From: Clostridiales bacterium
Lineage (GTDB): Bacteria; Bacillota; Clostridia; Lachnospirales; Lachnospiraceae
Assembly: GCA_012519695.1 (NCBI GenBank)
Contig: JAAYPT010000070.1
Coordinates: forward strand, 1 to 32,236
Reading direction: 5' to 3'
DNA length: 32,236 bases
The translations under genes and the position numbers were made by a program. Positions 4,506-7,739 of this stretch are shown piece after piece. The notes under the pieces are model-generated. The model saw only the letters and a program-made list of their open reading frames with translations. It had not been told where the DNA came from and searched no databases. Each line of letters starts with the position of its first letter. The first letter of the stretch is position 1.

Positions 4506-5429
4506 TTAATATATTTTTAATGCTAACTCCTTATAGTAATATGTCAAAATTTCTTTATAGGTTTTTCCTTGTTTTGCCATGTCGTTTGCTCCATACTGGC
4601 TCATTCCCAGTCCATGTCCTAACCCTTTCGTAAGAATTCGTACCTGTCCTTCTACTTCTTTTATGTAAAAACAGGCTGAGTTTAATCCCACATATTGCCG
4701 AAACTGCTCGCCGGACAACGTAATGTTTCCTATTTGTATTTGTGTAACGTACCCACTATCATCTCTTCCAGTTATCTGAATCATTGCCGGGATTTCCTCC
4801 GGACTAAGCGCAAGTGCGTTGTCTGCCGCCTGCAATTTTTGTGCTAACTCCTCTTTTTCCATAAAAATAACCTTTAAATAATCCGGGGATGAAATATCCG
4901 TCATACTGTCTACCGCTTTTAAATAAGGAACATCTTCTCTTCCCAATGCCGTCTGACTGTCTCTTGTCCTTCCGGCACTTACCGCATGATATGCCACTTC
5001 TGCGGGTTTTTCCTGCCAGGTCAAAATCTCCCCTTGGGTTGCAGCCACTGCCTGTTCTAATAAATGGTATTTTTCTTCAAATCCCTTTTTTTCAAAAAGT
5101 TTCAACAGTTCCTGTGCATCCATGGAATCCGGTAATTTCTTTTGTTCCCTCTGTGCTTTTACAATCATTGTTCTCGCAATCACTGCCTGCGCTTTTAAGG
5201 TTTCTTCTTCACTTTCCAGTGAAATCTGTTTAACCACCACGCCTTTTACATATTCCTCCACATCTATTTCCTTTGCTTTTGCATCCGCAGATGTGTTACT
5301 TAATTTTATTTTTTCTACATCTTTTTGATTTAAGCTTGTCTCTTCTCCTTGAAATAGCAACGTCGCAATATATGGAATTGCCACTACTAATACACATATA
5401 AATAAAAATGTTTTTATTTTTTCTTTCAT
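4506..5429 (-). CDS. spoIID: SpoIID-like engulfment protein, catalytic Glu replaced
   Basis: 307 residues from the ATG at 5429, which has AAGGGGG six bases upstream. The frame is open to 5465 and an ATG exists at 5435, but that one sits directly on the ribosome site. There is one N-terminal membrane segment (8-26), then the SpoIID/LytB domain: VEEYVKGVV (57-65), LKAQAVIARTMIV, AYHAVSAGRT (146-154), VPYLKAV, and the C-terminal GHGLGMSQYGA (271-281) with EILTYYYK. SpoIID is a peptidoglycan lytic transglycosylase that drives engulfment with SpoIIM and SpoIIP. The catalytic Glu of the family (Glu88 in Bacillus subtilis, in GVVxxEMP) aligns with Gln68 here (GVVVKQIS). Activity is therefore doubtful unless the alignment shifts. 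It is followed by spoIIQ and diverges from the radical SAM operon. Confidence 0.85.
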   Translation of the reverse strand: MKEKIKTFLFICVLVVAIPYIATLLFQGEETSLNQKDVEKIKLSNTSADAKAKEIDVEEYVKGVVVKQISLESEEETLKAQAVIARTMIVKAQREQKKLPDSMDAQELLKLFEKKGFEEKYHLLEQAVAATQGEILTWQEKPAEVAYHAVSAGRTRDSQTALGREDVPYLKAVDSMTDISSPDYLKVIFMEKEELAQKLQAADNALALSPEEIPAMIQITGRDDSGYVTQIQIGNITLSGEQFRQYVGLNSACFYIKEVEGQVRILTKGLGHGLGMSQYGANDMAKQGKTYKEILTYYYKELALKIY

Positions 5430-5489
5430 AGGCATCCCCCTTCTGATGTAGCTTATGTAAGACACTCAAAAAAAATACCAGTTTTTTGC

Positions 5490-5503
5490 CAAACAAATGT
5501 TCT
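5490..5503. promoter_or_regulatory. LexA/DinR-like box 1
   Basis: CAAACAAATGTTCT matches the Bacillus LexA consensus CGAACRNRYGTTYG at 12 of 14 positions, with AAAC-N4-GTTC as the core. It lies just upstream of, or overlapping, the probable -35 region of the radical SAM operon, and also within the divergent spoIID upstream region. Confidence 0.5.
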
Positions 5504-5531
5504 TGCATTTTCTTAAAAAATATGCTATTGT
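5503..5531 (+). promoter_or_regulatory. possible promoter of the radical SAM operon between two LexA-like boxes
   Basis: TTGCAT (5503-5508) and TATTGT (5526-5531) have a 17-base spacer. The match to sigma-A boxes is only fair. The placement between two LexA-like boxes makes it the best candidate in this intergenic region. Confidence 0.35.
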
Positions 5532-5537
5532 TGTTTC

Positions 5538-5551
5538 AGAACATTTGTTCG
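5538..5551. promoter_or_regulatory. LexA/DinR-like box 2
   Basis: AGAACATTTGTTCG contains the exact dyad core GAAC-N4-GTTC and matches CGAACRNRYGTTYG at 12 of 14 positions. It sits 16 bases before the ATG at 5568 and just downstream of the candidate -10 box, where repressor binding would block transcription. Its centre is 48 bases from that of box 1. Confidence 0.6.
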
Positions 5552-5567
5552 TATCGGAGGGATTTAG

Positions 5568-6920
5568 ATGAACTTACAAATGAACATGGATTTAATGGAG
5601 AAATTAACGATTCTTTCAGATGCAGCTAAGTATGATGTTGCCTGTACTTCCAGCGGAGTAAACCGCAAAGGTACCGGCAAGGGCATGGGGAATTCCATTG
5701 CGCCCGGCATTTGTCATACCTTTTCCGCAGACGGTCGTTGTGTTTCTCTTTTGAAAATATTATTTACAAATGAATGTATTTTTAACTGTGCCTACTGCCT
5801 GAACAATTGCAATAGCGATGTGAAACGTGCTGCATTTACTCCGGAAGAAGTCTGTACTCTTACCATGGAGTTTTATCGCCGTAATTATATCGAGGGACTT
5901 TTTCTAAGCTCCGGTATCATGGTAAGTCCCAACTATACCATGGACTTAATATACCAAACAGTTTATCAGTTAAGAACCGTTCACCACTTTAACGGTTATA
6001 TTCATGTAAAGGCTATTCCCGGTGCTGACCCTGTTTTAGTGGAAAAGACCGGATTTCTTGCAGACCGTATGAGTATTAATCTGGAACTTCCTACTTCGGA
6101 TGGTTTAAAACAGCTTGCCCCATATAAGTCACGAAAGACAATTTTAAAACCTATGCGACAGATTCAGAATGGAATTGCAGAAAATAAGCATGAGCTTATG
6201 GTTTATCGTAAGGCCCCTACTTTCGTTCCGGCAGGACAGTCCACACAAATGATTATCGGTGCTACCCCTGAAAATGATTTTCAGATTATGAGCGTTGCAG
6301 AAGGACTTTATAAAAAATTTTCTTTAAAGCGTGTATTTTACTCTGCCTTTGTGAATGTAAACAACAATTCCAATCTTCCTGCTACCACCGGTGGACCTCC
6401 GCTTCTACGGGAACATCGACTGTATCAGGCAGACTGGTTGCTACGTTATTATAAGTTTGAAGTATCGGAATTGTTATCTGAAGAACACCCGGACTTTAAC
6501 ATCTTTTTAGACCCGAAATGTGACTGGGCTTTACGTCATCTGGAATATTTTCCGGTAGAAGTCAATCGTGCCAGCTATCAGACACTTTTGCGTGTTCCCG
6601 GCATTGGCTACAAGTCTGCGGAACGTATTGTAAAGGCACGTCGTATGAATAAACTCACTTTTGATGACTTAAAAAAAATCGGGGTTGTCTTAAAGAGAGC
6701 CCTTTACTTTATCACCTGTTCCGGAAAAATGATGTATAATACCAAGTTAGAAGAGAACTATATCTGCCAGAATCTTATGCGTGATAAAACACAGATTCCA
6801 AAGGATATTCGGGAATCCGGCTATCAACAGTTAAGTTTTTTTGACCAGGATATGCGGGCAGATTTTCATCTTACCGATACACAGATTATTCCGCCGGGAC
6901 AACAGATTACCGTCATTTAG
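5568..6920 (+). CDS. Putative DNA modification/repair radical SAM protein with helix-hairpin-helix (TIGR03916 type)
   Basis: 450 residues. CxxxCxxC at Cys70, Cys74 and Cys77 (CIFNCAYC) is the [4Fe-4S]/SAM site; the radical SAM barrel covers about 55-300. LRVPGIGYKSAERIVKAR (341-358) and the following LTFDDLKKIGVVLKRA form a helix-hairpin-helix DNA-binding motif. Near the C-terminus QLSFF (421-425) resembles the bacterial sliding-clamp binding motif QL[SD]LF. The family is known as a radical SAM protein that co-occurs with a DUF4130/UDG-linked partner; its chemistry is not established. That partner follows 24 bases downstream. GGAGGG (5556-5561) fixes the ATG at 5568. LexA-like boxes in front suggest SOS induction. 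The domain assignment is firm; repair of a specific lesion is inference. Confidence 0.9.
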   Translation: MNLQMNMDLMEKLTILSDAAKYDVACTSSGVNRKGTGKGMGNSIAPGICHTFSADGRCVSLLKILFTNECIFNCAYCLNNCNSDVKRAAFTPEEVCTLTMEFYRRNYIEGLFLSSGIMVSPNYTMDLIYQTVYQLRTVHHFNGYIHVKAIPGADPVLVEKTGFLADRMSINLELPTSDGLKQLAPYKSRKTILKPMRQIQNGIAENKHELMVYRKAPTFVPAGQSTQMIIGATPENDFQIMSVAEGLYKKFSLKRVFYSAFVNVNNNSNLPATTGGPPLLREHRLYQADWLLRYYKFEVSELLSEEHPDFNIFLDPKCDWALRHLEYFPVEVNRASYQTLLRVPGIGYKSAERIVKARRMNKLTFDDLKKIGVVLKRALYFITCSGKMMYNTKLEENYICQNLMRDKTQIPKDIRESGYQQLSFFDQDMRADFHLTDTQIIPPGQQITVI

Positions 6921-6944: not shown

Positions 6945-7739
6945 ATGTATATTTTCCTTTGTGAAGATAGTATTGATGGAATTTTTACGGGAGTATATGA
7001 TGCCTGGGCAAGCCGTTACGGACATCAAAATGTCTCTCTTACCACGCATACTCCGGACAATTACACACTGTTTGATGAATATATTACGGTTACTCCCGAT
7101 ACAGAAAAGAGTCAAAAAGTCGCAAACACCTTACGAACGCAACTGGGAGAGGAAGTATTTTCTCAGATTTGCGAAGCTGCTTCTGCTTTAGAGGAACCTT
7201 CTCATAGGCACAACTATATCCCTAAGGCAGATGCCGTTTATCGCACAATTGTTTTGGGATTATCTCTAAAAAATGGCAATCGTGTGTTAGATTATCTTGG
7301 AGAACCTTATGTAAATCGTGTGTTTCAGTTGTCTCGTGCCACAGGAAACGAAGCCCATCATCTCCTTGGCTTTCTGCGATTTCAAGAATTAGAAAATGGT
7401 GTTCTTTTCGCCCGTATTCATCCGAAAAATGACGTATTATCCTTTCTGGCGAATCATTTCTCGGATCGTTTACCGGAAGAAAACTTTATGATTTATGATG
7501 AGACACGAAAAAAGGCCGCCCTGCACCGGAAAGGTTCTTACTTTTTCCTTACCGGCACAGAGGACCTGGATGAACAACTATTGCAACGTCTCTCTCCACA
7601 AGAACTGGAATATCAGAAATTGTGGTGTGGATTTTTTGAAAGTATTGCTATTGAAGCCAGATGCAATCCCAAATTGCAAAATCAAAATATTCCGAAACGC
7701 TTTCAAAAAAATGCGGTAGAATTTTCTTCTCACCTATAA
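6945..7739 (+). CDS. DUF4130 family DNA metabolism protein (TIGR03915 type)
   Basis: 264 residues, soluble. Recognised by the start YIFLCEDSIDGIFTGVYDAW, the GNEAHHLLGFLRF segment (134-146), the DETRKKAALH stretch (185-194), and the C-terminal WCGFFESIAIEARCNPKLQ. These fit the DUF4130 family. In other bacteria this domain is fused to a UdgX-type uracil-DNA-binding domain; here it stands alone, without that domain. It is the expected partner of the radical SAM protein just upstream (24-base gap) and is surely cotranscribed, so it should share the LexA-type control. The biochemical role is unknown; conserved His138/His139 and Asp185/His194 could form an active or metal site, which is only a guess. 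AGGAGG with good spacing supports the ATG. Its last six bases overlap the converging chemoreceptor gene. Confidence 0.88.
   Translation: MYIFLCEDSIDGIFTGVYDAWASRYGHQNVSLTTHTPDNYTLFDEYITVTPDTEKSQKVANTLRTQLGEEVFSQICEAASALEEPSHRHNYIPKADAVYRTIVLGLSLKNGNRVLDYLGEPYVNRVFQLSRATGNEAHHLLGFLRFQELENGVLFARIHPKNDVLSFLANHFSDRLPEENFMIYDETRKKAALHRKGSYFFLTGTEDLDEQLLQRLSPQELEYQKLWCGFFESIAIEARCNPKLQNQNIPKRFQKNAVEFSSHL

Follow-up and report, generated by a model that had tools for sequence, protein, structure and literature searches.

Paired LexA-type operators predicted around the promoter of a TIGR03916-TIGR03915 gene pair and their conservation in Lachnospiraceae

Background

The gene pair described here consists of a radical SAM gene of family TIGR03916, which we take to be the same family as COG4277, followed by a TIGR03915/DUF4130 gene. 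It lies in the window (the whole stretch of 32,236 nucleotides that was analysed) from a Clostridiales bacterium of the Lachnospiraceae, and is compared below with systems described in the papers cited. LexA control has been predicted, from footprinting and expression clustering, for CAC3343-CAC3344 of Clostridium acetobutylicum (PMC3828012). By name this is the same operon in another lineage of the Clostridia, and the SOS link is hence not new in kind; the dual-operator geometry of the window is not described for CAC3343-CAC3344 in the extract of that paper (PMC3828012). SOS control has also been predicted for a COG1573-COG4277 operon in Bacteroidetes, with Verrucomicrobia and Alphaproteobacteria cited (PMC8565304). 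That operon is like the pair in the window in its predicted SOS control, but its partner is a UDG/UdgX-type protein (PMC8565304) whereas the partner in the window is TIGR03915 alone. Gram-positive LexA operators of the form GAACN4GTTC share both sequence and position over the promoter with the boxes reported here, from which they differ in that the window has two, 48 bp apart (PMC4234289).

Radical SAM genes have also been placed under LexA elsewhere. LexA sites precede splB, a spore photoproduct lyase-like gene of another radical SAM family (PMC3323433, PMC8565304), and a radical SAM gene, vnz_31145, is listed in the Streptomyces LexA regulon (PMC9380542). SOS-regulated splB resembles the predicted arrangement in the window as a radical SAM DNA-repair gene under LexA; however, at E up to 0.001 the TIGR03916 protein of the window matched only TIGR03916 among the NCBIfam models and gave no match to the SplB family model. 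In the extract of an in-silico C. difficile list the words radical, photoproduct and splB are absent (PMC4234289). No functional study of the TIGR03916-TIGR03915 pair was found among the literature matches listed. What is added here is the breadth of the arrangement in Lachnospiraceae, the dual-operator architecture and a pair without UdgX.

Results and discussion

Boxes and promoter in the intergenic region

The 138 bp between the spoIID-type gene and the radical SAM gene (5430-5567) contain two LexA-type boxes (Table 1). Against the 10 fixed bases of the Bacillus-type consensus CGAACN4GTTCG, the proximal box AGAACATTTGTTCG has 1 mismatch and the distal box CAAACAAATGTTCT has 2. The initial annotation had reported GAAC-N4-GTTC at 5539-5550 and AAAC-N4-GTTC at 5491-5502, and both cores, GAACATTTGTTC and AAACAAATGTTC respectively, are found at exactly these positions. 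It had also given each box 12/14; with the Ns counted as matches this is right for the distal 14-mer, but the proximal one scores 13/14.

Table 1. Features of the gene pair and its upstream region in the window
Feature	Position	Strand	Basis
spoIID-type gene, divergent, outside the conserved arrangement	4506..5429	-	225.3 bits, under the TIGR02870 cut-off of 234.75
Distal LexA operator (predicted), CAAACAAATGTTCT	5490..5503	.	Consensus match, matrix rank 2; overlaps the -35 by one base (5503)
-35 hexamer TTGCAT (predicted)	5503..5508	+	Sequence; TTG-type -35 between the boxes in relatives, by eye
-10 hexamer TATTGT (predicted)	5526..5531	+	17 bp from the -35; TG extension at 5523-5524
Proximal LexA operator (predicted), AGAACATTTGTTCG	5538..5551	.	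Consensus match, matrix rank 1; at the expected transcription start
Ribosome-binding site GGAGGG	5556..5561	+	Position; role from its place before the ATG
TIGR03916 radical SAM gene	5568..6920	+	692.5 bits, cut-off 343.5
TIGR03915/DUF4130 putative DNA repair protein, 264 aa, operon gene 2	6945..7739	+	226.2 bits, cut-off 112.25

Scored with a matrix built from 258 boxes of relatives, the window being left out, the proximal box is the best in the window (20.6 bits) and the distal box the second (18.2 bits); the third-best score, 12.1, falls within the TIGR03915 gene. Dinucleotide shuffling of the intergenic region, repeated 20,000 times, produced a box of at most 1 mismatch in 12 cases and never produced one together with a second of at most 2 mismatches. 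Taken alone, the distal box with its 2 mismatches would be unremarkable. Loose matching to GAACN4GTTC carries no information: with up to one mismatch the window holds 9 matches against 9.17 expected, which is no enrichment.

A predicted promoter, TTGCAT-N17-TATTGT, sits between the boxes at 5490-5503 and 5538-5551 and points to the radical SAM gene, which bears out the earlier proposal that the boxes flank a candidate promoter. On this sequence-based prediction the distal box touches the -35 hexamer, and the expected start falls within the proximal box. The -10 hexamer corresponds by eye to the TGTGNTATRAT of many relatives. For the divergent spoIID-type gene the start was set by eye at the ATG at 5429; the mechanical reading frame begins at 5465.

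The TIGR03916 protein passes the curated cut-off and has the radical SAM CxxxCxxC motif and a helix-hairpin-helix, the cysteines C70, C74 and C77 being invariant in an alignment of 45 proteins. Searches against solved structures gave two weak partial matches for TIGR03916 at E up to 0.1; the alignment of DUF4130 matched none, with E allowed up to 1.

LexA motif of this genome

The genome encodes a cleavable LexA and a RecA, both family matches being over cut-off, and the LexA translation shows by eye an Ala-Gly cleavage site as well as the GESM and Lys catalytic residues. A box, CGAACATAAGTTCG, is located upstream of recA, and four boxes (CGAACACCTGTTGC, CGAACATTTGTTTA, CGAACAAATGTTTG and CGAACAAATTTTCG) separate lexA from a divergent gene, LysM-like by eye. 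The place of this gene beside lexA resembles that of yneA beside lexA in Bacillus. The recA and lexA promoters had been named earlier as a check on the motif, and the same kind of operator is present at both; because the boxes are of one type, the LexA of this genome very likely reads a Bacillus-type operator. A different LexA consensus in this genome is rejected in view of these Bacillus-type boxes.

With only 1 mismatch, the pattern CGAACRWWYGTTCG is found at five sites in the 3.16 Mb genome, namely this operon, recA, two before lexA and one within a coding sequence resembling spoIIIAF (name given by eye). Looser searches show no enrichment genome-wide: exact GAACN4GTTC occurs 22 times (16 of them within mechanical reading frames of >130 aa) and its reversed pattern 35 times; when up to 2 mismatches are allowed, CGAACRWWYGTTCG is found at 43 sites and its reversed pattern at 72. 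The core alone would not give evidence of LexA control.

Conservation within Lachnospiraceae

Family TIGR03916 scores over its cut-off in 67 of the 120 family genomes, one per genus, and 65 of these genus representatives were used, own genome included and G031 and G063 left out for incomplete genes. The initial annotation had pointed to box conservation in orthologous promoters as a check, and the boxes are conserved: at least one with ≤2 mismatches stands within 250 bp upstream of TIGR03916 in 64/65 representatives and at least two stand there in 52/65, counts that are not independent given that the upstream sequences are related, that include three loci with the last 100 bp upstream identical to a named locus, and for which gene starts were assigned approximately by script. 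The 65th representative (L150) carries both boxes and the same promoter farther upstream, before a longer leader. Over the same 65 upstream regions, shuffled sequences had boxes in 3.4 on average and in 9 at most, and the wrong-pattern controls gave 6/65 (reversed), 5/65 (gap of five) and 2/65 (gap of three).

An automatic scan of the named set found boxes in 75 of 80 loci. L082 and L097, which the scan missed, have two boxes each before an inserted gene, and two further missed loci have their boxes farther upstream before a stretch of N (L117) or at -329 and -303 (L126). L090 has no box within 1400 bp upstream of TIGR03916 and has lost its boxes. Boxes occur at a density of 7.0 per kb upstream, compared with 0.17 per kb in the rest of these loci.

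By eye, 57 relatives picked for a box spacing of 55-59 bp share this layout: the distal box is followed by a TTG-type -35, a spacer of about 17 bp, a TGTGNTATRAT-like -10 and the proximal box. Of the 111 relatives that have at least two boxes, 51 have the last two 56-58 bp apart; the 48 bp spacing of the window is common to 6 of the 111, itself included. TIGR03915 is downstream of TIGR03916 in 80/80 named loci, with one gap of 1056 bp. Boxes are found before lexA itself in 26 of 29 usable relatives and are lacking in the other 3 (30 best-scoring loci, one of them too short to count). A lexA match is present in 109/120 family genomes, and co-occurrence with lexA is for that reason uninformative.

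Copies beyond the family

Outside Lachnospiraceae, 64 other genomes exceed the TIGR03916 cut-off, of which 49 Bacillota copies were read. A box (≤2 mismatches, 300 bp) is present in 34/49, a few of which may be chance, and 15/49 have no such box in 300 bp; the LexA link is therefore not universal. By tblastn the partner is downstream in 41/49. Eight copies are left. Three of them (L228, L231 and L233) match TIGR03915 with scores under the cut-off; in L196 and L206 the downstream genes tested proved to be of another kind, and in L229 a single neighbour was tested and is not TIGR03915. L227 and L232 are the remaining two.

Plasmid copies were sampled as 14 of 158 records, fetched from 40 listed and picked for taxonomic spread: 11 alphaproteobacterial, 1 betaproteobacterial, 1 from Lachnospira and 1 from Gemmatimonadota. 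In five unannotated plasmid loci the start of the match was taken as the gene start. Each of the 11 alphaproteobacterial copies carries GAACN7GAAC or GTTCN7GTTC as an exact match in the 160 bp upstream, while the same direct repeat at nine other gaps (3 to 12) is found in 0/11, and the N7 repeat is absent from the remaining 43,840 bases of those loci. The single betaproteobacterial copy has an exact CTGTN8ACAG of the E. coli type, CTGTATAAATATACAG, starting 29 bp upstream; the Lachnospira eligens copy has CGAACAAATGTTTT, and the single Gemmatimonadota copy has no convincing site. The direct repeat GAACN7GAAC and CTGTN8ACAG are LexA operators of Alpha- and Betaproteobacteria, respectively. In E. 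coli, CTGTN8ACAG is described as the LexA operator (PMC4234289). The predicted operator type follows the lineage while the predicted link to the TIGR03916 gene stays, and we regard this as the strongest evidence that the putative control is selected.

Predicted SOS control and alternative readings

The TIGR03916-TIGR03915 pair is in all probability a LexA-repressed SOS operon with two operators that would be relieved by DNA damage, and because its relatives keep LexA sites it is very likely switched on by such damage. As to membership of the LexA/SOS regulon, the operators abut or overlap the predicted promoter of the target operon, match the motif of the genome's own LexA and are kept before orthologues above controls. 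The SOS placement made in the initial annotation is supported by the conserved boxes together with the operators at recA and lexA. In undamaged cells, LexA dimers would sit on the two GAACN4GTTC-type operators, one just upstream of and touching the -35 hexamer and the other over the transcription start, and would block RNA polymerase. On DNA damage, RecA filaments would trigger LexA self-cleavage, which would vacate both operators and allow synthesis of the radical SAM enzyme together with its DUF4130 partner. LexA binding, repression and induction at the operon are predictions from the DNA sequence; with less confidence, we infer a role for the pair in repairing or processing a DNA base lesion.

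Repressor sites are often short palindromes with AT-rich cores, and LexA binding here is predicted only, so the boxes could in principle bind another palindrome-reading repressor. We consider this very improbable: the same kind of operator stands at recA and lexA of this genome, and the proteobacterial sites switch to the direct repeat and to CTGTN8ACAG, the forms that LexA is known to read in those classes. Even less probable is a service to the divergent spoIID-type gene, with the radical SAM pair on the other side by coincidence. The two genes do diverge across the 138-bp region in the window, and an effect on spoIID had been suggested earlier, but the promoter between the boxes points toward the radical SAM gene, and only 13/80 named loci have a spoIID match at a distance of ~350 bp or less from TIGR03916. 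Moreover, no box was found within 250 bp of 29 spoIID-type genes elsewhere in the family (30 loci, own left out; approximate starts; all 29 below the TIGR02870 cut-off, above which 0/60 genomes had a match), as against 65/65 radical SAM upstream regions. With 0/29 spoIID-type genes boxed, the boxes follow the radical SAM pair; the suggestion of an effect on spoIID is weak, spoIID as the target is rejected on the absence of boxes elsewhere and the rarity of the adjacency, and the predicted operators belong to the radical SAM pair. Least probable of all is that a degenerate motif is matched here by chance. Loose forms are indeed at or below control level in window and genome, but conservation before orthologues is far above that of shuffled, reversed and wrong-gap patterns; the conservation tests refute chance so far as sequence can, and the box pair was seen in 0 of 20,000 shuffles.

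Partner protein and UdgX

The automatic name of the pair suggests repair, and predicted SOS control that persists across three types of LexA operator is independent evidence that the pair acts on DNA damage. The four proteobacterial copies that were tested have as second gene a fusion of TIGR03915, at the N-terminus, with TIGR03914, a UdgX-type uracil-DNA binding domain. By profile match the partner in the window is TIGR03915 alone with no TIGR03914 domain, and TIGR03914 has no match in this genome. Gut Lachnospiraceae, with a partner free of UdgX in this genome, provide a simple setting in which to study the roles of the radical SAM enzyme and DUF4130.

In two Roseburia loci (L082:1327-2412 and L097:1345-2466) an NT5C-type deoxynucleotidase gene is located between the LexA boxes and TIGR03916, and it appears to have joined the SOS operon there. 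By eye, the C-terminal half of the protein has a P-loop-like stretch (L097). The insertion was not found in the window or in the other loci searched (L025-L233). It is possible, though to our minds rather doubtful, that TIGR03916 and DUF4130 form the core of a widespread SOS-induced repair pathway without uracil-DNA glycosylase, to which a UdgX domain would have been added in Proteobacteria, the pair being kept under LexA across at least three operator forms with the occasional recruitment of a further enzyme, such as the deoxynucleotidase of these two loci.

Other sites in this genome

Among the own-genome sites examined, no clear further SOS gene was found beyond recA, lexA and this operon; of the 38 sites with 2 mismatches to CGAACRWWYGTTCG, two beyond those already named were examined (L176 and L178). 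An inverted repeat surrounds the GAACN4GTTC core of CTTCTTGAACGAAAGTTCAAGAAG at L015:474-485 (G000:C64), near which no reading frame of 60 aa or more starts. The site GAACATACGTTC at L018:507-518 (G000:C97) is followed after ~190 bp by a gene for a protein with a REP_ORF2-G2P replication domain; this may be a mobile element under SOS control. At L004:1501-1512 (G000:C10:19364-19375), GAACATATGTTC is 14 bp before a histidine kinase gene and also 149 bp before a divergent alpha/beta-hydrolase gene. Finally, GAACATGTGTTC at L003:1501-1512 (G000:C9:22353-22364) is found 86 bp upstream of a HelD-like reading frame of 402 aa. This frame falls short of the HelD models in length and of their cut-offs in score, and is a possible further SOS gene.
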